From Mariprofundus sp. NF (GTDB lineage: Bacteria > Pseudomonadota > Zetaproteobacteria > Mariprofundales > Mariprofundaceae), in contig NZ_VWNC01000011.1 of assembly GCF_013387455.1 (NCBI RefSeq), positions 1 through 64,000 of the forward strand: 64,000 nt of DNA, given 5' to 3'. The notes beneath the pieces were generated by a model. The model saw only the letters and a list, made by a program, of their open reading frames with translations. It was not told where the DNA came from and did no database searches. The number at the start of each line of letters is the position of its first letter. Position 1 is the stretch's first letter. Shown here piece after piece: positions 253 through 56,935 of this stretch. Position numbers and translations under genes: made by a program.

Positions 253-694
253 AGGCCCTCCATATGAAATTGAAAGGTAGCTTCTTGCGGCAACAACTCA
301 AATGAAATATTTCTTTGAGTTTTCAACAGTATTAGAGGCTATTGTGAATAACTGTTTTTTTGCAGAACTCAGCCGGTCACTTTCTTGCAGTAGCCTACCG
401 AATTCAATTGCACTGGCATGTCAGATTAGTGCAACCACTTGCCTGCTTCTCTGTAACCTGCGTGCTGGAATATACTGGTGTTTTTAATATATCTATTTTA
501 TAACGGAAGCACTCTAAGGGGAGGGTATTACTGCTCGGAATCAAATAACTTCACGTTGCATTTCACATTGGTCAATTAGTTACTATACTCAGAAAGGAAA
601 TTTGGCTTTCAGTACCTCTGTTGATTTTGTCTCAAACGTGATGGATAAACAGGCCAAAGCTTACAATGAGAGTACTTTCTAAATAGGGATGCAG
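253..694. other. Non-coding stretch with no convincing gene
   Basis: About 440 AT-rich bases lie between the lipoprotein gene and the first nuclease gene. A 61-codon open frame at 302-487 has no ribosome binding site and a low-complexity product, so I do not call it. A frame without a start ends at 680 with ...QAKAYNESTF and could be the tail of a decayed gene. No clear promoter or repeat was seen. Confidence 0.5.
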
Positions 695-1810
695 ATGGAA
701 TTAGAATCAACCATAAAACGTCTAGAGGAAATAGAGGATGAGCTGCAATCACTTCGAGTACAGCTAGAGGGTTCCAGGTGTGATTGTAAAAGTCACTTGG
801 AAATCAGAAGGCGAGAGTATTCAAACCGAAGCATTCATTATGTATATCAATGTACGAACTGTGGTGAACAGAATGGGAATCCAATAAGTAAAAATAATGC
901 CATGCTGAAACTGGGCGAGCAGTTACTGAAGCCTTTTGATGATCAGATTCTGAAGGCTCGAAATTCAGAACGGGAAATTGTGAATGCTCAGTTTATCCAT
1001 CTGATTCAAGAAAGAAGTGAACTTCATGGATATGAATACGATCCATCATTAATAATACAGAATGCCTCAGAGAAAGAACGGGAGACAACCACACAGCTAG
1101 AGAAGTTGATTGAGCAAATAGTATCTGATTATGATCGGGAACGTGCGATTAAATTTACAATTGATCAAACAAATCGATTAAAGAAAGATCAGTTTGAAGA
1201 GTTGTCACTAGCGTTGAATAGATTCAAAAGCGAAGATGAATTGAAAGAGTGGTTTGTTGCTCATCTTTCAAATGATTTCTATCTTCATACAGAAGTTAAA
1301 GGCAAGCACTTAGCTGAAAATGTAAATGTGAGAATTGACTATATTCTTTACCCAAAAAATCATTTAATCAGTGAAGGGTTTGAAAGTGCTCCATTTGGTG
1401 TGGAAGTAAAATACATTAAGCAGGAAGAGGGATTTACCCGAAAAGCTAGCAGAGCTTTTTGGCAAACCATTAGCTATGGTGACTGTGAATTTGAAATTAA
1501 TAACATGCAGATTAAGCCCAAGGTGTGTTTACTCTTTTCAAACCTTTCCTTTAAAGATGAGGAGAAGTTACTTTGTGATTTCAATGGTTATTATTCTAAT
1601 GACCACTCCGAGTGGAGTGGTATGCTTCATTTAGCTAACCATGCCAAAGCTGGGCGACTTCTTGTGAAAGGAAGTAGGTCTGATTATCGGGGATGGGAGA
1701 TGAGGTTTGCTTCTGGACTGTACTTTACATGTGCTAAAATCAAAGGGAAATGGACATACAGAGTCTCTAATGAGGATGTGATTAATAAAGTGCGAGTAGG
1801 AAACTTCTAA
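695..1810 (+). CDS. Zinc-ribbon, coiled-coil PD-(D/E)XK nuclease-like protein
   Basis: I do not recognise this as a named family. The start at 695 (MELESTIKRL) is preferred over 689 because AGGGA lies five bases before it. The product is about 371 residues. An N-terminal heptad-like helix leads into a zinc-ribbon-like CDC...CTNCG module around residues 28-60, then charged helices that may form a coiled coil. The C-terminal third holds RIDYILYP, then GVEVKYI about 25 residues later, then a helix with WQTISYGD. That is the D...ExK plus Q layout of PD-(D/E)XK nucleases, so a DNA-cutting role is predicted by motif only. The next gene starts 16 bases downstream with its own ribosome binding site, so the two are very likely co-transcribed. 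Both sit on the island. An anti-phage role is plausible but unproven. Confidence 0.6.
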   Translation: MELESTIKRLEEIEDELQSLRVQLEGSRCDCKSHLEIRRREYSNRSIHYVYQCTNCGEQNGNPISKNNAMLKLGEQLLKPFDDQILKARNSEREIVNAQFIHLIQERSELHGYEYDPSLIIQNASEKERETTTQLEKLIEQIVSDYDRERAIKFTIDQTNRLKKDQFEELSLALNRFKSEDELKEWFVAHLSNDFYLHTEVKGKHLAENVNVRIDYILYPKNHLISEGFESAPFGVEVKYIKQEEGFTRKASRAFWQTISYGDCEFEINNMQIKPKVCLLFSNLSFKDEEKLLCDFNGYYSNDHSEWSGMLHLANHAKAGRLLVKGSRSDYRGWEMRFASGLYFTCAKIKGKWTYRVSNEDVINKVRVGNF

Positions 1811-1826
1811 TCCTAATGGAGGATAA

Positions 1827-3347
1827 TTGTCTTCGGTGAAACTTGGATGGGGCATGTCTCATTCTGGCAAAATGCTTCATATTTCTGTCGTATCTCGCGG
1901 CAAGGCATGTAACTGTGTCTGCCCAGACTGTGAAGGGCAGCTAATTGCCAGGCATTGCAAAGAGCGATCAGACCATTTCGCGCATGCTTCATTGTCTGAA
2001 TGCAGTGGAGAGTCAGCTCTACACAAAGCTGCAAAGCAAATTCTTGAAATAGCATCCAAGGAAAATAAAAGGCTATTAATCCCTCCTCTTCATGGTATCG
2101 AAGAGTCGGAAGATTACTGCGGGATCCCTCACATAAAAGCGTGGGAGGTTGAGCAAGACCATATACTGATGGAATCAGCCCAACAGGAAGTATCCCTGGC
2201 TAATGGTCAACTAGTAGCAGACGTATTAGTAACCGAGCCAAATGGAGCAACTGTTGCTGTCGAAATACATGTCACCAACAAGAAAGGTTACGAGGAAATA
2301 AACAAATACAAATCTATAAATCAAGAAGCATTTGAGATTAATCTCTCAACACTGCCTTGGGATGCAACTGAAGAGGTGATTCATAATGCTGTGTTAGAAA
2401 AAGAAAACAGGCATTGGTTATATAGTCACCGGGAAACATCGTTAATTACTTCTACACGAAATCAACTAGATCGAGATATTGATGTAATCAATCAGAAGTA
2501 TTTTGATCGCTTTGAAGCCGAAATGAAGCTATTTAGAGAATCGAACAATCTTCTGGTAAAAGATCTAAATTGGCCTCTTCTTGAGCAGCTAAAAAAAGGT
2601 GTAAGTGTTTATGGAAAAAGTGTATCCAAAAAGGCAGAGGCTGTTCCAAAAGTGACAAGCATTTTAGGCGAATGGGAAAATCAAAATGGAGGATGGAAAG
2701 CTGACGGGATTGTAAATGGGAAGACAAAGGTTGAGGTATACTTCTTACTTTGTGGGTCTTCCAATGTTGTTGAACAAGCAAAGCGTCCTTCACTTATAGT
2801 TTGGTTTAATCCCATTGCTTCTTATTCTGATCCTGTCTTCATTTTAAAATGGGTAAATATTCAACATTGGATAGAGGAATTATCTCATCGAGCAACAAAG
2901 AAACTCACGTCTGAGTTAGAAGAGTTAAGACATAAAAAGCGTCGAGAAGAAGAATATGCAAAATATTTTTGCTTACTCAGCGACCAAGAGAAAATATACA
3001 ATGTTTCGGCTCGCCTCTCGATTCCATGCCCTACAGTAACAGCAAAACCCATGCATTCATGGAATTGCTCTAGACCAGTTTGGAAAAGCCTAATTTGGTA
3101 TTATAAAATAAAAAGACAACAAGGTGGGGCCATTAGTATCAAGCATATCGCGGCAGATGAGTGGCTAGCGAAAATGCTTGGTTGGTCGGATGATGAACTG
3201 TTGATTGAAAAGCGTTCAAAAGATCTTTGGTTTTGGTTCCAAGACCTAAATCAGTTTGGATTTCTTGAACATACTGGTCGCCAGAGGTTTTCAATTTCGA
3301 AGAAGTTGCCAAAGGATTTTGTACCATGGCAGCGAGTATATCCGTAG
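1827..3347 (+). CDS. CoiA-like competence/nuclease family protein
   Basis: This 506-residue protein starts with TTG at 1827, set by GGAGG at 1819-1823. The N-terminal region has CVCPDCEGQLIARHC followed by SDHFAH, the Cys-pair and HFAH signature of the CoiA-like zinc module. A helix SALHKAAKQIL follows, and then a nuclease-like core LVADVLV...VAVEIHVTN around residues 130-150. CoiA-family proteins are linked to DNA processing during transformation, and many members occur in mobile islands. Residues after about 200 are not recognisable. It follows the PD-(D/E)XK-like gene by 16 bases, so the pair probably works together on DNA. The family call rests on the N-terminal motifs; the cellular role is inference. 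Confidence 0.65.
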   Translation: MSSVKLGWGMSHSGKMLHISVVSRGKACNCVCPDCEGQLIARHCKERSDHFAHASLSECSGESALHKAAKQILEIASKENKRLLIPPLHGIEESEDYCGIPHIKAWEVEQDHILMESAQQEVSLANGQLVADVLVTEPNGATVAVEIHVTNKKGYEEINKYKSINQEAFEINLSTLPWDATEEVIHNAVLEKENRHWLYSHRETSLITSTRNQLDRDIDVINQKYFDRFEAEMKLFRESNNLLVKDLNWPLLEQLKKGVSVYGKSVSKKAEAVPKVTSILGEWENQNGGWKADGIVNGKTKVEVYFLLCGSSNVVEQAKRPSLIVWFNPIASYSDPVFILKWVNIQHWIEELSHRATKKLTSELEELRHKKRREEEYAKYFCLLSDQEKIYNVSARLSIPCPTVTAKPMHSWNCSRPVWKSLIWYYKIKRQQGGAISIKHIAADEWLAKMLGWSDDELLIEKRSKDLWFWFQDLNQFGFLEHTGRQRFSISKKLPKDFVPWQRVYP

Positions 3348-6376: not shown

Positions 6377-8587
6377 ATGCATATATCCAAAGCTAGCTTG
6401 GTGAATTATCGAAATTTTTCCAATACGAGTTTCTTTTTCAATAAAGGAGTGAACACGGTCATTGGTGAGAATGCTTCGGGGAAAACCAATCTTTTCAGAG
6501 CAATCCGACTATTGCTAGATGATTCAATGCCTCGCTCAGTCATCAAGCTTGATGAAAAGGATTTTTTTAGAGGACTGGGTGATTGGCGCGGTCATTGGAT
6601 TATCATCAGCTTGGAGTTTGATGAAATCTCCCAAGATGAATCGATTCAAGCGCTATTCCTCCATGGTCTAGGAAATATTGAAGGAGAAACAGTTAGTAGA
6701 GCAACCTACAATTTAATCTTTCGACCTAATGCATCGGTTCGAAGTGAGCTATCTCAACTTACGTTAGGAGATACCGTAGGTCTTGGACTCATACTTGGAA
6801 GACTAAGTCTTGATGACTATGAGGCTGTTGTAACGGGGAAAAGCAGTGCTGATTTTAACGATTCAAGTGTCTACAAACGTCTCGTTGGAGACTTTGTAGG
6901 TGTCCAGTTCCCCGCCCAACTAGATCCCCCCGAAATTGGAAGTAGAATGCCTCCAATTTTATCCATGAGTAAAGAAGTGTCTTTCACCTTTATTCAAGCA
7001 TTAAGAGATGTCGTTTCAGACTTTCATAACAATCGACGGAACCCTTTATTGACCCTTCTGAAAAGAAAAAGTGGTGAAGTCGACCCAGCCGAATTCGGTC
7101 CGATTGCGAATCAAGTAGATGTCTTGAATAGTTCAATTGAAGCTCTGTCTGACGTAATTGAAATTCGGGGTGACATCCATACCACCATCAATAACACAGT
7201 GGGTGATGCCTACTCACCAGTCTCCTTGTCGATTAAATCTGATCTCTCAGATGAAGCAGAACAGTTATTTCAATCTTTGAAATTGTTTATTGCAGAATCT
7301 GATGATGGGCACGAGGGCGCTATTCATGAGATGAGTTTGGGCGGAGCAAATTTGATTTACCTGACACTTAAGTTGCTTGAATTTAAGTATCAAAAGGCTA
7401 ATCAGTCTATTGCAAACTTTTTAATAGTTGAGGAGCCAGAAGCTCATATCCATACTCATATTCAGAAGTCTTTATTCGATAAGATTAATTATACAAATGC
7501 GCAAGTAATTTACTCAACACACTCATCTCATATTTCAGAGGTTAGTAATGTAAAAAGCGTCAATGTTATAGGTAAGGTCGATGGAAAATGTGAAGCATTT
7601 CAACCAGCAGCAGGATTATTGCCAAATCAAATCGGAAGCGTTCAACGCTATCTAGATGCTATTCGGAGTAATTTGCTTTTTGCTAGAAGCGTAGTGCTCG
7701 TAGAAGGCGATGCGGAAGAAATATTAATCCCCATTTTAATCAAAAAAGTGATGGGTGTCAGTCTCGATGAGCTGGGTATCAGTCTAGTGAATATCCGGAG
7801 TACTGGTTTTGAAAATGTTGCTTTGTTATTCCATGATGATCGGATTAGAAAGAAGTGCAGTATTATTACTGATCTGGATGAAACTTTTTTTGATACCACT
7901 GAAATTGTTGGAGACACCAACGCTGTAAAGAGTGCAAAAAAAAGAGCACTGGGTTCTCGCGCCTCTGGCATTGCTAGAAAGGCAGCTCTTGATGCATTCT
8001 GCAATGGTAACACTTGGGTTAGACCATTTTATGCCCCACATACATTCGAAGTTGATTTCATTGCAGTTGGGAATAGTAAGAGTCTTGTTAGTATTTTACC
8101 GGATGTCTATGTAGATACTACTACCATTGCCACATCAGAGGCTGAACTCGAATCAGGTGACATTGCAATATTTGGAAAGCGTGCTCTAACGATGGCGAAC
8201 CATTCAGGGAAAGGATGGTTTGCAATATTATTAGGTAAGGCTGTCGACTATAATACGATTATTCCAGAGTATATTGTAAACGCGATATTTTTTGCACATG
8301 CACATATCAGCAATGATGTTATTTTCAAAATTCTGAACCACCGTTTATTTTTGTTTGCTAAGGAATTAGACGCGAATAGAGCTATGGTGGATGCAGCCAG
8401 AGGGCAAACAGAACAATGGTATTCCAGTTGGGAAACATATATATCAACTAACCGAGCCGCTGTATTGGTATTGTACCCGAAGTTGAAAGGTTTCCGTGAT
8501 GGAGTATTGAATTTCAACCAAATTCGATCCGATATGCTCACACATTTGCCTAATGATAAAATCAACCCCATTCTTGCAAGGCTCTGA
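6377..8587 (+). CDS. gajA: OLD-family ATPase/Toprim nuclease, GajA-like
   Basis: The 736-residue protein starts with RNFSN and a Walker A GENASGKTN near residue 33. An ABC-type signature SLGGANLIYL (about 320), Walker B FLIVEEPEAHIH (about 350) and the switch STHSSH (about 380) complete the ATPase. A Toprim nuclease follows: VLVEGDAEEILI (about 435) supplies the conserved Glu and IITDLDE (about 495) the DxD metal site. This ATPase-Toprim order defines OLD-family endonucleases. Adjacency to a UvrD-like helicase makes it class 2, the GajA component of Gabija anti-phage systems. GajA from Bacillus is about 580 residues, so this copy has roughly 150 extra, mostly C-terminal. GGAGGG precedes the ATG; the helicase gene starts three bases after the stop. 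Confidence 0.8.
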   Translation: MHISKASLVNYRNFSNTSFFFNKGVNTVIGENASGKTNLFRAIRLLLDDSMPRSVIKLDEKDFFRGLGDWRGHWIIISLEFDEISQDESIQALFLHGLGNIEGETVSRATYNLIFRPNASVRSELSQLTLGDTVGLGLILGRLSLDDYEAVVTGKSSADFNDSSVYKRLVGDFVGVQFPAQLDPPEIGSRMPPILSMSKEVSFTFIQALRDVVSDFHNNRRNPLLTLLKRKSGEVDPAEFGPIANQVDVLNSSIEALSDVIEIRGDIHTTINNTVGDAYSPVSLSIKSDLSDEAEQLFQSLKLFIAESDDGHEGAIHEMSLGGANLIYLTLKLLEFKYQKANQSIANFLIVEEPEAHIHTHIQKSLFDKINYTNAQVIYSTHSSHISEVSNVKSVNVIGKVDGKCEAFQPAAGLLPNQIGSVQRYLDAIRSNLLFARSVVLVEGDAEEILIPILIKKVMGVSLDELGISLVNIRSTGFENVALLFHDDRIRKKCSIITDLDETFFDTTEIVGDTNAVKSAKKRALGSRASGIARKAALDAFCNGNTWVRPFYAPHTFEVDFIAVGNSKSLVSILPDVYVDTTTIATSEAELESGDIAIFGKRALTMANHSGKGWFAILLGKAVDYNTIIPEYIVNAIFFAHAHISNDVIFKILNHRLFLFAKELDANRAMVDAARGQTEQWYSSWETYISTNRAAVLVLYPKLKGFRDGVLNFNQIRSDMLTHLPNDKINPILARL

Positions 8588-8590
8588 TCA

Positions 8591-10384
8591 ATGTTTATGT
8601 GGAATGATAGTGACCTGAATGATGAACAGGTAGAGGCCATTGAGGAGGAAAAGAGCGTTTTCTTGGTGGCGTGCCCTGGTAGTGGAAAAACAAGAACGCT
8701 GACCTACAAAATAGCTCGCGAGCTATCAAAACTGAAAGAAGAAAAGAAATGGGTGGTAGCCATAACGTACACTCATAGAGCTGCTGATGAGATACATGAG
8801 CGCATTGAAATGCTTGGGGTGGACACTTCAAAGCTTTGGATTGGCACAATTCATTCTTTTTGTTTGGAGTGGATATTAAAACCTTATGGTATTTATCACG
8901 ACTCATTGAAGTATGGATTTAGGGTGATCAATTCCCATGACACAGAACAGAAAATTACTGAACTATGCTTACCTTTCCGAAACCCTAAAATAACAGTTTG
9001 GAACTGTGGCCATCATTACACATCAACGGAACGAGTTCTGACTTGTAGCGCTGTTCAAAGACCATATGTCGAAAATATTCTGGATCAGTATTGTGCGAAC
9101 TTGCACGATAATCAGCAAGTAGATTTCGAACAGATATTGTTGTTTGCTTACGAGTTAATTGTTCAGCACTCATCAATTAGCAAGCTACTTAGTTCATTGT
9201 TTTCTTACATATTGGTGGATGAGTATCAAGACACTAAAGAAATACAATATAGGATTGTAGCTGAAATTATAAAAGCGGGTCAGGGGAGGGTTAAGTCGTT
9301 CATTGTTGGTGACCCCAATCAAGCAATCTACGGATCTCTTGGTGGTTATGCGATTACAGCTAGAGAATTTCAAGCGATGGCAAATATTGAACAAAGAGAG
9401 ATGAGTCTATCGCTCAACTATCGTAGTTCAAATCGTATTGTTGAATATTTTAGTCACTACAACGTTTATGATACGTCTATATCGGCGGAAGGTGAATTCA
9501 GTGACTTCCCAAGTGTGATTACATTTGACACATTAACAGAAAAGAGTGAATTGGTAGAAATGCTAACTCAACTTATTCGACACCAAATTGAAGTGGAGGG
9601 TGTACCTCAAAATGAAATTTGTATTTTGGCCCCGCAGTGGATCTTCTTAGCTAGTATGACTCGAAGTCTGATGACTGCTTTACCCGAATATAGTTTTGAT
9701 GGCCCTGGTATGGTTCCCTTTACTCGTGATATTGATAACTTTTGGTACAAGTTAACGAGGATCATTTTATCCGAGCCATCTCCAACGATGTATGTTCGTC
9801 GTTTGCGATGGGCTGGTGAGGTATTATCATCATTAGAAGATGCAAATGTTGATATATCTAGCATCTCTAGGCGGATGTTACTTAGGGAATGTAACACGAT
9901 AATGCTGGCTGAGCAGGATGGCCTTGAGTACCTAGAGCAGTTTATGGATCAATTGTTCGAACGATTAAATATTGATTATAGCGATTTCCCTTCCCTTGTT
10001 GAGCATCACGATGCATTTTTTTCAAGTTCACGTGCTCGAATTCAACGTATCCAGAAAGAGGGCACTACGTTTATCAATACAATTGATGCATTTCGTAAAG
10101 TATTCGAAAGTCGAAGTGGAATAACAGTCTCTACAATCCATGGAATAAAAGGTGGAGAATTCGATGTTGTTATAGCTTATGCCTTGCTTCAAGGATTGGT
10201 GCCTTATTCTGGCAATTCAAATGATAGTGCGAAGAAATTACTCTATGTGATTGGTTCCAGGGCTAGAAAGCACTTACATCTAATTTCAGAGAGAGGGCGA
10301 CGAGATGCGTACACTAGGACAGAACGCATTCCTACAGAAGTTTTGAACGCCTGTAGCTTTGACTACGATGGGGAGCGTCCTTAA
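8591..10384 (+). CDS. gajB: UvrD-like superfamily 1 helicase, GajB-like
   Basis: The 597-residue protein shows the SF1 helicase motifs in order: Walker A ACPGSGKTRTL (about 28), ITYTHRAADEI (Ia), LVDEYQDT (II), VGDPNQAIYGSLGG (III), LNYRSSNRIVEYF (IV), VSTIHGIKGGEFDVV (V) and LLYVIGSRARKHL (VI). It belongs to the UvrD/Rep/PcrA group and is predicted to translocate on DNA. As partner of the OLD nuclease three bases upstream it corresponds to GajB, which in studied Gabija systems works in a complex with GajA. Usual GajB proteins are nearer 490 residues, so this one is longer. A general repair helicase is less likely because of the tight coupling and island setting. Confidence 0.8.
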   Translation: MFMWNDSDLNDEQVEAIEEEKSVFLVACPGSGKTRTLTYKIARELSKLKEEKKWVVAITYTHRAADEIHERIEMLGVDTSKLWIGTIHSFCLEWILKPYGIYHDSLKYGFRVINSHDTEQKITELCLPFRNPKITVWNCGHHYTSTERVLTCSAVQRPYVENILDQYCANLHDNQQVDFEQILLFAYELIVQHSSISKLLSSLFSYILVDEYQDTKEIQYRIVAEIIKAGQGRVKSFIVGDPNQAIYGSLGGYAITAREFQAMANIEQREMSLSLNYRSSNRIVEYFSHYNVYDTSISAEGEFSDFPSVITFDTLTEKSELVEMLTQLIRHQIEVEGVPQNEICILAPQWIFLASMTRSLMTALPEYSFDGPGMVPFTRDIDNFWYKLTRIILSEPSPTMYVRRLRWAGEVLSSLEDANVDISSISRRMLLRECNTIMLAEQDGLEYLEQFMDQLFERLNIDYSDFPSLVEHHDAFFSSSRARIQRIQKEGTTFINTIDAFRKVFESRSGITVSTIHGIKGGEFDVVIAYALLQGLVPYSGNSNDSAKKLLYVIGSRARKHLHLISERGRRDAYTRTERIPTEVLNACSFDYDGERP

Positions 10385-19807: not shown

Positions 19808-21814
19808 TTAGTCGGCAGCCGACGGATTGAGAATACGCTTCTGAATTGCAGCAGGAACCACATCGTAGTGATCGAACTCAATGGTGTAACTGCCTTCACC
19901 GCGAGTCATCGCTTTGAGCTGTGCCTGATAGGATTGAATTTCTGCCATGGGCGCCTGGGCTTCGATGATGGCGCTACTGCTTTTCATATCCGTGGCGAGA
20001 ATCTGAGCCCGGCGTGAATTGAGATCACCCATAATATCACCGATATGATCCTGCGGCACTGAGATGGCCATTTTCACAATCGGCTCAAGCAGTACAGGCT
20101 GGCACTGTTTAAAGGCCTTTTTGAAGGCTTTGTGTCCGGCGATCTGGAAAGCGATATCCTTGGAGTCGACGCTATGGGTTTTGCCATCCACCAGGGTGAC
20201 ACGCACGTCTGCTACCGGATAACCGGCCATTACACCCTCCTGCATGGCCGCTTGCACCCCTTTATCCACTGAACTTCGGAACACCGCATCAATGACGCCG
20301 CCATGGATTTTATCGACAAATTCATAACCTTCACCGCGAGCAAGTGGTTCCACATTGATCACCACCCGTCCGAACTGCCCGGCACCGCCGGACTGCTTTT
20401 TGTGTGTATAATCAATGCCTTGCACAGCCGCCGTAATGGTCTCCATATAGGCGACTCGAGGCGTGGACGTATCCACCTTCACCTTGTAGCGGCGTTTGAG
20501 TTTATTGAGGACCAGACGCAGATGCAGGTCAGACATGCCACTAATGACCAGATCGTGGGTTTGTGAATCACTATGCACCTGGAAGGTGCGGTCATCATTT
20601 TCAAACTCATGCAGGGCCATGCCCAGTTTCTGGTCATCCTTAGTTGTTTTGGGGCGGATTGCCAGCGACACCATAGGCATCGGAAACTTCATCTCATCAA
20701 GTTTAATATCGGTTGTTGCATCAGTAATCACATCACAGGCGTGCATATCGGCAACTCTGGGTATGGCCACAAGATCACCGGCTACGGCTCTGCTGATATC
20801 CTGCTGCTGTTTGCCGATCACCCGGAAGATATGACCCGCTTTCTCCTCTTTTCCAGAGCGGCGATTGATGAATGTATCGTGGGCTGAGATGGAACCGGAG
20901 AGAACGCGAAGATAGGAGATGCGCCCGACAAATTCATCGGATTCAGTATGGTAGACATAACCCGAGAAACCTTTGATATCGTTAATCGAGACAGGCTCAC
21001 CACACTGCTCAACGATGCGTTCAATCTTATCCGGAGCCGGGGCCAGATCGCTCAAAAGATCCAGAAGCGCCCTGGTGCCTGTTTCATGCTCTCCTGCAGT
21101 CGGTATGACCGGAAACAGGTTGCCATGCAGTAGCGCCTCTTTCAGGGCGCCTGTAAGCTCGTTTTCACTGATTGTCTCACCTTCAAGGTAGCGTTCCATC
21201 AGATCATCATCGGTTTCGACAATCGCCTCAACGATCTGCTCATACGCTGCAGCCGTTTCAGCGTTGGCATCTCTGTTGTGCAGTACCGAATAAACCTCGG
21301 TGAATGCTGCAGATGAGGCGTTGGGAATGTAGAGAGGGATACAGCGGTTACCGAATTCAGTTTTAACCGCTGCAAGTGCGGTCGTAAAATCTGCCGTATC
21401 CGCATCAAGTTTGGTTAGCGCGATAATGCGTGGAATACCGCGTTGGCTGGCCAGTCGCCACACCCTGCGCGTATTAACCTTGACGCCATCACAGGCATCC
21501 ACACAGATCAGGGCTGACTCGGCTGCATGCAGGGCGGTCATTACTTCGGCGATGGCATCGGGTGAACCCGGCACATCAAGACAGTTAAAATGCAGATCGT
21601 TGTAATCAAATGAGAGGGTGGAGCAGTAGAGTGACTTCTCATACTGCTTCTCATCAGGATCGAAATCACTAACGGTGTTGTGGGCATCAATATGGCCCAT
21701 GCGGTTGGTCACGCCGGCGCTGTGCAGCATCGACTCCAGCAGCGTGGTTTCACCCGCGCCTTCGTGATCCAGTAGTGCAATATTTCTAATTTGTGAGCTG
21801 TTTAACCGGTCCAA
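19808..21814 (-). CDS. EF-G paralogue with degenerate GTPase motifs
   Basis: The 668-residue protein spans the domains of elongation factor G: a GTPase domain, domain II (GISYLRVLSGSISAHDTF region), and domains III-V ending in YTIEFDHYDVVPAAIQ. It resembles the FusA2-type EF-G-like paralogues rather than the essential factor. The GTPase motifs are altered. The P-loop reads DHEGAGETTL, with Glu in place of the invariant Lys. The switch II motif reads DVPGS where EF-G has DTPGH, so the catalytic His is gone. The base-recognition motif is TKLD, not NKxD. It starts with TTG behind GGGAGG. It may bind ribosomes without normal GTP turnover. The sequence at 21757-21774 clearly encodes the Glu, so it is not my reading error. 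Confidence 0.75.
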   Translation of the reverse strand: MDRLNSSQIRNIALLDHEGAGETTLLESMLHSAGVTNRMGHIDAHNTVSDFDPDEKQYEKSLYCSTLSFDYNDLHFNCLDVPGSPDAIAEVMTALHAAESALICVDACDGVKVNTRRVWRLASQRGIPRIIALTKLDADTADFTTALAAVKTEFGNRCIPLYIPNASSAAFTEVYSVLHNRDANAETAAAYEQIVEAIVETDDDLMERYLEGETISENELTGALKEALLHGNLFPVIPTAGEHETGTRALLDLLSDLAPAPDKIERIVEQCGEPVSINDIKGFSGYVYHTESDEFVGRISYLRVLSGSISAHDTFINRRSGKEEKAGHIFRVIGKQQQDISRAVAGDLVAIPRVADMHACDVITDATTDIKLDEMKFPMPMVSLAIRPKTTKDDQKLGMALHEFENDDRTFQVHSDSQTHDLVISGMSDLHLRLVLNKLKRRYKVKVDTSTPRVAYMETITAAVQGIDYTHKKQSGGAGQFGRVVINVEPLARGEGYEFVDKIHGGVIDAVFRSSVDKGVQAAMQEGVMAGYPVADVRVTLVDGKTHSVDSKDIAFQIAGHKAFKKAFKQCQPVLLEPIVKMAISVPQDHIGDIMGDLNSRRAQILATDMKSSSAIIEAQAPMAEIQSYQAQLKAMTRGEGSYTIEFDHYDVVPAAIQKRILNPSAAD

Positions 21815-22096
21815 GAGAGCCTCCCTGATGTGGGGAACATGGTAAAGATGAGCGTGACCTGATGAATCAGTGAGACAGCTTTGATGGCTATGATGAGCTT
21901 GGTCATGCCTGTTCCCGATGATTAGAAAAGCATACAGAAAAGATGGATCAGCGTCTATCCGTTTTGACTCTTCCGGCGTGAATATAAGATGCTGCCATGA
22001 TGGCAGTAAGCTGCGTCGTTACGTGTCGTGAAGTGGTGGCAGGCAGTGCGTAAAGCTGCAGGTGAATTCCAGAAAAAAAGCGGATAGGGTCAGGGG

Positions 22097-55519: not shown

Positions 55520-56935
55520 ATGGATCAATCGAATCGTTACGCCGATCTCAGTCTCAATGAAGACGACCTGATCGCAGGCGGCCAGCATCTGCTTGTTGCT
55601 TATAAACTTATTCCAGCCGAAGGCTATGGCTTCCTGGAAGTAGCTGCTCACGTTGCAGCTGAATCTTCAACAGGTACAAACGTTGAAGTATCTACTACAG
55701 ATGACTTTACCCGTGGCGTAGATGCACTGGTATATGAAATTGATGAAACTGCATTTGGCGATGACCCTGTCAAAGGCGGCGGTTTGATGAAAATCGCTTA
55801 CCCGGTCCCTCTGTTTGACCCGAACCTGAGTGATGGTCACTTCAATGTGTCACACATGTGGTCACTGATTCTGGGTAACAACCAGGGCATGGGCGATCAT
55901 GATGGTCTGCGTATGCTCGACTTCATGGTTCCTGAGTGCATGATCAAGAAATTTGATGGCCCAAGTACTGGCATTGCTGATATGTGGGAAGTTCTGGGTC
56001 GTCCACGTGAAAACGGTGGTTACATCTCCGGTACTATCATCAAACCTAAACTGGGTCTGCGTCCTGAGCCATTTGTTAAGGCATGTTACCAGTTCTGGCT
56101 TGGCGGCGACTTCATCAAGAATGATGAGCCTCAGGCTAATCAGCCGTTCTGCCCAATGGAAACTGTTATCCCTATGGTTGCTGAGACCATGGATCGTGTA
56201 CAGCAGGAAACTGGCCAGGCTAAGATCTTCTCTGCCAATGCTACAGCTGACTGGCATACTGAGTGCATCAAACGTGGTGACTTCATCCTTGAGTCCTTCG
56301 CTAAATACGGTAACGAAAAGCATGTTGCATTCCTGATTGATGGTTTCGTAACTGGTCCTGCTGGTGTTACCACTGCACGTCGTGCATTCCCAGACACATT
56401 CCTGCACTTCCATCGTGCTGGCCATGGCGCTCTGACTTCTTATAAATCCCCAATGGGCATGGATCCACTCTGCTACATGAAGATCTCCCGTCTTTCAGGC
56501 GCTTCTGGTATCCACACTGGTACCATGGGCTACGGTAAGATGGAAGGCCACGGCAACGAGACTGTTCTTGCATACATGCTTGAGCGTGACGAGTGCATGG
56601 GTCACTACTTCAACCAGAAATGGTATGGCATGAAGCCAACTGCTCCAATCATCTCCGGTGGTATGAACGCACTGCGTCTGCCAGGTTTCTTCGAGAACCT
56701 TGGCCATGGCAACGTGATCAACACTTGTGGTGGTGGTTCATTCGGCCACATCGACAGCCCTGCTGCTGGTGCTAAGTCTCTTAGCCAGGCATACGAGTGC
56801 TGGACATCCGGTACTGACCCAATCGAATACGCTAAGACTCATAACGAGTTCGCACGTGCATTCGATTCATTCCCAGCTGACGCCGACAAGATCTACGGCG
56901 CTGACTGGCGTGAAAAAGTGGGCGCACACAAGTAA
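55520..56935 (+). CDS. cbbM: RuBisCO form II large subunit
   Basis: This 471-residue protein is a complete form II RuBisCO. The active-site Lys lies in [10 protein letters not shown], the carbamylated Lys and metal ligands in [10 protein letters not shown], the substrate His in HRAGHGAL, and the mobile loop 6 Lys in GYGKMEG. It fixes CO2 onto ribulose-1,5-bisphosphate as a dimer without small subunits, and suits low-oxygen, high-CO2 habitats. Codon choice is biased to GGT, GCT and CGT more than its neighbours, as in highly expressed genes. A terminator follows; no cbbQ/cbbO activase genes are adjacent. Confidence 0.97.

Follow-up and report, generated by a model that had tools for sequence, protein, structure and literature searches.

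The 64,000-nucleotide stretch of Mariprofundus sp. NF DNA analyzed here (the window) carries a gene for an elongation factor G (EF-G) paralogue whose GTP-binding site departs from that of ordinary EF-G proteins, raising the question of what such a factor might do on the ribosome. An initial annotation had drawn attention to GAGETT in the P-loop, DVPGS in switch II, and TKLD in place of NKxD, and had proposed a pseudo-GTPase that might park on ribosomes or bind another nucleotide. All three motifs are borne out by the sequence and by our alignments, with the open reading frame (ORF) on the minus strand (Table 1). The complete P-loop reads D16-H-E18-G-A-G-E22-T-T-L25, and the alignment reveals that the canonical EF-G signature (P-loop Lys, RGITI, DTPGH, and NKxD) is absent from the protein.

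Table 1. Features of the EF-G paralogue gene, given in window coordinates.
Feature	Position	Strand	Basis or remark
EFG II-branch EF-G paralogue	19808..21814	(-)	668 aa, TTG start at 21814, stop at 19808, five EF-G domains
Promoter-like TAGACG-N17-TATGCT	21929..21957	(-)	By-eye reading of upstream alignment
Shine-Dalgarno GGGAGG	21820..21825	(-)	6-11 nt upstream of TTG
Codon GAA (Glu22), in place of P-loop (G1) Lys	21749..21751	(-)	E in 9/9 clade members, K in 114/114 EFG I rows
Switch I E59-K60-S61-L62	21629..21640	(-)	Alignment of clade and EFG rows
Codon TCA (Ser84) at switch II His site, D80-V-P-G-S84	21563..21565	(-)	Ser also in Bacteroides EF-G2
G4 T134-K-L-D137 (NKxD, Asn to Thr)	21404..21415	(-)	Thr codon ACC from 21415; alignment
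Domain IV (about residues 452-572)	20099..20461	(-)	Pfam, alignments

The Pfam domains GTP_EFTU, EF-G_D2, EFG_III, EFG_IV, and EFG_C are all recognized in the protein. The TTG start is supported by orthologous genes, because a GGAG core is located just 5′ of the start in nine of nine orthologues when their upstream regions are aligned and read by eye. The same reading assigns TTG to seven of these genes, ATG to one, and GTG to one. Further upstream, the promoter-like candidate is recognizable in the orthologous loci of genomes G015, G011, and G007, and in weaker form in G020 and G028. This candidate was not picked up by a promoter scan, which gave no hits in the intergenic region and whose total number of sites did not exceed that of shuffled sequences. 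Likewise, an Rfam scan of the window at the gathering threshold yielded no match to a regulatory RNA. The codon adaptation of the paralogue is 0.59, which ranks seventh among the 29 of 42 window ORFs that were included, versus 0.796 for the second EF-G of this genome. The latter protein is canonical, is 33% identical to the paralogue, and is encoded at G000:C2:266113-268155 adjoining an EF-Tu-like ORF.

Orthologues (E ≤ 1e-140) are found in 10 of the 78 genomes of the class, all within a single family (f1). Glu22 is present in each of the nine orthologues that retain an N-terminus, a count that includes the window protein and leaves out L097 (G008), which lacks this region. The other eight are 65-93% identical to the window protein, with the 93% value coming from Mariprofundus strain KV. 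One orthologue (L096, from G019) ends at residue 527, and L089 and L001, whose alignments are identical, represent one genome. Residue 84 is Ser in eight of nine orthologues and Cys in G019, whereas the G4 motif is TKLD in seven and TRLD in two, with Thr134 and Asp137 present in all nine. Since these residues recur in this way, sequencing error or chance is an unlikely source of the motif changes.

The remodeling of the site extends well beyond the motifs noted initially. A total of 43 clade-specific invariant changes are spread across the whole protein, with Glu18, Glu22, Glu59, Lys60, and Val81 among those located in the pocket. Glu59, Lys60, and Ser61 of switch I are each found in nine of nine clade members, as are Thr23, Asp80, and Gly83, and residue 16 is Asp in all members but one (Gly in G027). 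Lys60 is rare elsewhere, and Ser61 replaces the canonical Thr as it does in EFG II proteins.

Selection appears to have maintained this altered site. Estimates of dN/dS range from 0.060 to 0.075 for six orthologue pairs and from 0.08 to 0.112 for the G domain in the four pairs that could be computed. Only the pair of the window protein and G015 (dS 0.63, dN/dS 0.061) lies clear of saturation at synonymous sites; the other pairs are close to it or beyond it. No stop codon interrupts the frame in any of the 10 orthologues. Moreover, 29 of 36 GTP-site motif positions are invariant within the clade versus 79 of the 219 other G-domain positions (Fisher p 7e-7), with the caveat that we chose the motif positions from known G motifs, which are conserved in most G proteins. 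Judged from these comparisons, the GTP site is one that has been rewritten and kept, not freed from selection. The initial annotation had reasoned that Lys and His residues in close homologues would mark the gene as a decaying copy; what we find instead is that the changes recur in the close homologues and that these genes evolve under purifying selection.

To which branch of the EF-G family does the clade belong? Two quick trees computed without bootstrap group it with EFG II and outside EFG I. In the tree with SH-aLRT values, which covers 72 of 217 rows of our choosing, the clade itself receives a value of 100, as does a 49-row branch in which it is joined by Planctomycetota, Myxococcota, and other proteobacterial EFG II proteins. 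The branching order among these kin has no resolution in the trees. Actinobacterial EFG II proteins join the EFG II branch with a value of 89. These trees were built without the EF-G2 proteins of Thermus, Bacteroides, Borrelia, and mitochondria. The rows were assembled in part from a phylum search with matches in 84 of 398 genomes, from which loci were taken at the best 30 places, and from 30 loci out of a longer list of relatives of the planctomycete. Identical sequences and repeats (L168, L169, L171, L172, L173, L174, L176, L177, and L207) were dropped before conservation was counted. The resulting 80 EFG II rows outside the clade exclude L107, L108, L140, L144, and L147, which are placed with EFG I (SH-aLRT 99).

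The initial annotation had suggested alignment with FusA2-type paralogues as a check, and this comparison proves informative. The P-loop Lys is present in all 114 canonical EF-G rows, in 62 of the 63 near EFG II relatives that have a letter at the site, and, with gaps set aside, in 76 of 77 EFG II rows outside the clade, where Glu is fixed. In contrast, the switch II His is missing from 77 of 79 EFG II rows outside the clade and kept in two, and G4 is variable, such that Asp137 is kept in 64 of 80 rows and lost in 16. Because these EFG II rows rarely have the His, vary at G4, and almost always keep the Lys, the alignment identifies the His and Asn changes as family background and the Lys to Glu change as the clade's own step. 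Two of the three signs that had been taken to indicate a dead GTPase are therefore commonplace within the EFG II branch and carry little information by themselves; for example, Thermus thermophilus EF-G-2 carries DAPGY and TKLD. The substitution of Lys by Glu retains its weight, as it is real, fixed in the clade, and hard to square with normal GTP binding, which makes pseudo-GTPase a fair label.

Other marks of the EFG II group are shared only in part. Leu at the last P-loop position, given for 99% of EFG II proteins (Margus et al. 2011), is present as Leu25 in nine of nine clade members, whereas EFG I mostly has Thr there (108 of 114 rows). Ser61 likewise agrees with the EFG II consensus xxxSx for G2, in which Ser is described as replacing Thr (PMC3150367). 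Asp16 differs from the Gly reported for 86% of EFG II proteins (Margus et al. 2011), a feature that is thus frequent rather than universal. The G1 (GhxxxGKT) and G4 (NKxD) motifs are reported to be conserved in EFG II (Margus et al. 2011), and the GAGETT and TKLD/TRLD motifs of the clade break this consensus. Therefore, we class these proteins as EFG II-branch variants and not as standard EFG II.

Attempts to place the paralogue in named protein families led to the rejection of each. It scores 542.8 bits with the canonical EF-G model (TIGR00484; cutoff 659.4), with which the other EF-G of the genome scores 1174.4, and 524.9 bits with the Bacteroides-type EF-G2 model (NF058620; cutoff 1000). 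The score with the actinobacterial EF-G2 model (NF009377) is 546.6 against a cutoff of 890, whereas the actinobacterial row L132 reaches 1216.1. The tetracycline ribosomal protection model (NF012153) gives 304.4 bits (cutoff 775). The paralogue does pass NF009891 (657.6 versus 597), but this model was set aside as a marker of EFG II because it also accepts several canonical EF-Gs from the same genome family. Both EF-Gs of the genome pass NF009381, which hence offers no discrimination. Among the literature matches listed, none deals with this clade.

Several known EF-G2 proteins nonetheless provide useful points of comparison. The EF-G2 of Bacteroides thetaiotaomicron (BT2167; PDB 8dmf and 7uvp; NF058620) coexists with a canonical EF-G, as does the window protein, and we take it to carry a 26-residue insert. 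The two proteins both have Ser at the site of the switch II His (DCPGS in Bacteroides, giving a common DxPGS) and Ser in switch I, but in the Bacteroides protein the P-loop Lys is retained (GSGKTT) and G4 reads NQLD. Its ribosome-bound structure, 8dmf, is the top PDB match of residues 1-150 of the paralogue (95.1 bits, with Thermus EF-G-2 at 89.0). The corresponding chain of 7uvp is labeled 'Tetracycline resistance protein TetQ', even though its sequence is the same as that of 8dmf, which is titled as ribosome-bound B. thetaiotaomicron EF-G2. Bacteroides EF-G2 reportedly supports translation without GTP hydrolysis, a finding credited elsewhere to Han et al. (EMBO J).

Thermus EF-G-2 (1WDT/2DY1) is an EFG II protein that resembles the paralogue in its lack of the switch II His, its TKLD motif, and the Leu that ends its P-loop, but this loop still contains the Lys (GSGKTT). 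A figure legend in Margus et al. describes it as drawn with bound GTP from 1WDT, and ribosome-dependent GTPase activity is reported for it (PMC3832671). The EF-G2 of Mycobacterium smegmatis (FusA2; 9k0z, on the 70S ribosome) also lacks the switch II His (DTPGY) and has TKLD, and again differs in keeping the Lys (GGGKTT); an excerpt of the same source states that no ribosome-dependent GTPase activity was found for this protein (PMC3832671). Because the activities of these three proteins differ, loss of the His alone does not fix the biochemistry. Escherichia coli EF-G His91 mutants are described as having varied degrees of defect, with H91Q hydrolyzing GTP like wild type (PMC4532990). All three EF-G2 proteins keep the Lys, and therefore none is a precedent for its loss. 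The nearest non-orthologues are Planctomycetota and Myxococcota EFG II proteins (L002, L004, and kin; 41% and 37% identity), whose domain IV loops are nearly identical to those of the clade. These proteins differ from it in having the P-loop Lys in every row with a letter at that position, except for L220 (Met).

The domain IV tip of EF-G enters the decoding site, and this domain is the best kept in the clade. The clade retains the following shares of the columns that reach 97% conservation or more across the 114 EFG I rows: G domain, 27 of 107; domain II, 7 of 31; domain III, 8 of 27; domain IV, 20 of 28; and domain V, 14 of 32. The domain IV loop THKKQSGGAGQF is invariant in nine of nine orthologues, and H547-x-V-D-S is invariant in the eight that reach that far. 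H547 aligns with a His that is implicated in tRNA movement (H580 in Mycobacterium tuberculosis; PMC8446442).

An AlphaFold2 model of the paralogue is of moderate quality (pLDDT 81.3, pTM 0.68). Its superposition on EF-G as bound to the ribosome in 9rtu has a Z of 46.1 (rmsd 10.2), and that on Bacteroides EF-G2 in 8dmf a Z of 39.4 (rmsd 9.2); the high rmsd values probably result from differing domain arrangements in the predicted and experimental structures. Mitochondrial EF-G2 is also among the structural matches of the model (7nsh, Z 42.8; 7l20, Z 39.0). When the planctomycete EF-G L124 is used as the query, canonical EF-G is the first match.

These findings bear on function as follows. Domain IV is the best-kept domain, the model aligns with ribosome-bound EF-G, and EF-G blocked from GTP hydrolysis is described as still unwinding and translocating, with delayed release (PMC12775393). 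For these reasons we infer a ribosome-binding translocation factor that is silent as a GTPase. Specifically, we see about an even chance that the paralogue is an EFG II-branch factor that would carry out translocation without GTP hydrolysis in the manner of Bacteroides EF-G2, possibly without binding GTP at all. The paralogue probably docks on the ribosome like EF-G, carrying the domain IV translocation tip. Glu22, together with the new Asp16 and Glu18, would prevent the phosphates of GTP from being bound normally, such that GTP would not be hydrolyzed, and a slow translocation might be driven by binding energy alone, as has been reported for the Bacteroides protein. Such a factor would probably be used when GTP is scarce. 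The host is, we presume, an iron oxidizer like other Mariprofundus, and it is plausible that an energy-poor organism of this kind would have reason to keep the paralogue. The published Bacteroides precedent points to GTP-independent translocation over the parking or alternative nucleotide binding put forward in the initial annotation. A counterpoint is the poor retention of EFG I-conserved positions in domain III, which is reported to affect both GTP hydrolysis and translocation (PMC3150367).

A more radical version of this proposal can be put forward, though we consider it rather unlikely. Lys60 of switch I could, speculatively, pair with Glu22 and keep the switch in its 'on' shape. If so, an internal salt bridge might replace GTP and create a nucleotide-free EF-G with a permanently active shape, for which ribosome binding alone would pay for translocation. 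Parsimony on the 72-row tree requires at least three losses of the P-loop Lys (to Glu in the clade, to Ala or Ser in family f8, and to Met in the planctomycete L220), which hints at repeated evolution of GTP independence among EF-G paralogues.

Alternatively, the protein might occupy ribosomes rather than move them, by binding on the A-site side, releasing slowly in the absence of GTP hydrolysis, and thereby protecting or silencing ribosomes during starvation. The combination of a diverged G domain with a preserved domain IV, the part that enters the ribosome, would suit such a role, and loss of hydrolysis is described as mainly delaying EF-G release (PMC12775393). A ribosome-occupying factor would not obviously need a translocation tip, yet both THKKQSGGAGQF and H547-x-V-D-S are invariant wherever they are present, and we consider this function unlikely.

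The pocket might also not be empty. In ordinary G proteins, the counterparts of Asp137 and Thr23 contact guanine and Mg2+, respectively. Because both residues are found in all nine clade members, and Asp137 is lost from 16 of 80 other EFG II rows, some guanine-nucleotide binding by the paralogue may remain. This leaves alive the prospect of a slow switch that holds GDP, GMP, or an alarmone in its altered phosphate site, since the constancy of Asp137 speaks against a wholly abandoned guanine site. The retention of Thr23, Ser61, Asp80, Gly83, Thr134, and Asp137 throughout the clade fits this model, as does the greater conservation of motif positions than of the remaining G domain. However, an acidic residue at the Lys site of P-loop proteins is electrostatically hostile to phosphates, Asp16 and Glu18 are close by, and the conserved residues may be structural, making a slow switch unlikely in our estimation.

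EF-G paralogues specialized for recycling are reported (PMC9067457, PMC3832671), and the paralogue could in principle split ribosomes with RRF like mitochondrial or Borrelia EF-G2. Consistent with this idea, mitochondrial EF-G2 entries appear not only among the structural matches noted above but also, for residues 1-150, among the top five PDB hits. The paralogue is nevertheless located outside the EFG I part of trees that were built without the mitochondrial and Borrelia proteins, and H547, the counterpart of the His linked to tRNA movement (PMC8446442), is retained in all eight orthologues covering the position. A dedicated recycling function therefore strikes us as improbable. Finally, a decaying duplicate would be suggested only by the motif losses taken in isolation, and it is ruled out for practical purposes by the low dN/dS, the clade-fixed substitutions, the 10 intact frames, and the conserved start signals.

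Which translocation steps need GTP hydrolysis by EF-G is described as still debated (PMC12775393). These proteins are natural, conserved EF-Gs with an acidic residue at the phosphate-holding site, and they have Lys-bearing relatives that could be used for comparison. They make nucleotide-free translocation open to direct testing by a natural experiment, which would be the main value of the clade. Bacteroides EF-G2 is reported to skip hydrolysis but keeps its Lys.

Unusual GTP-site motifs were also observed in rows outside the clade. The paralogue of family f8 (L107, L108, and L144, from G045, G048, and G051), which groups with EFG I, has GGGGATT or GGGGSTT as its P-loop and has lost the Lys in all three f8 genomes covered, while its kin L140 and L147 retain this residue. 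The P-loop of the planctomycete EFG II protein L220 is GAGMTS. In four other planctomycete EFG II proteins (L224, L225, L227, and L229), the switch II Asp is replaced by Val (VAPGM), and in eight from Myxococcota (L181, L182, and L184-L189) the G4 motif has degenerated to SHIG.

No conserved operon is seen around the paralogue in the orthologue neighborhoods, and its neighbors change between genomes. Genes for a SpoIIE phosphatase and fumarase adjoin it in the window and in G015, G011, and G007. In G020, these two genes are located four genes away, and the intervening genes are common to G019 as judged by eye. The neighbors differ in G012, G027, and G008, and the contig of G028 is too short for comparison.

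Two other loci in the window deserve mention. A Gabija anti-phage pair is encoded by GajA (6377-8587; 1005 bits) and GajB (8591-10384; 836 bits), which have a GC content of about 40% and share their low codon adaptation with the ORFs at 689-3347. The gene for the RuBisCO large subunit (55520-56935) has a codon adaptation of 0.796, equal to that of canonical EF-G, which fits an autotroph.
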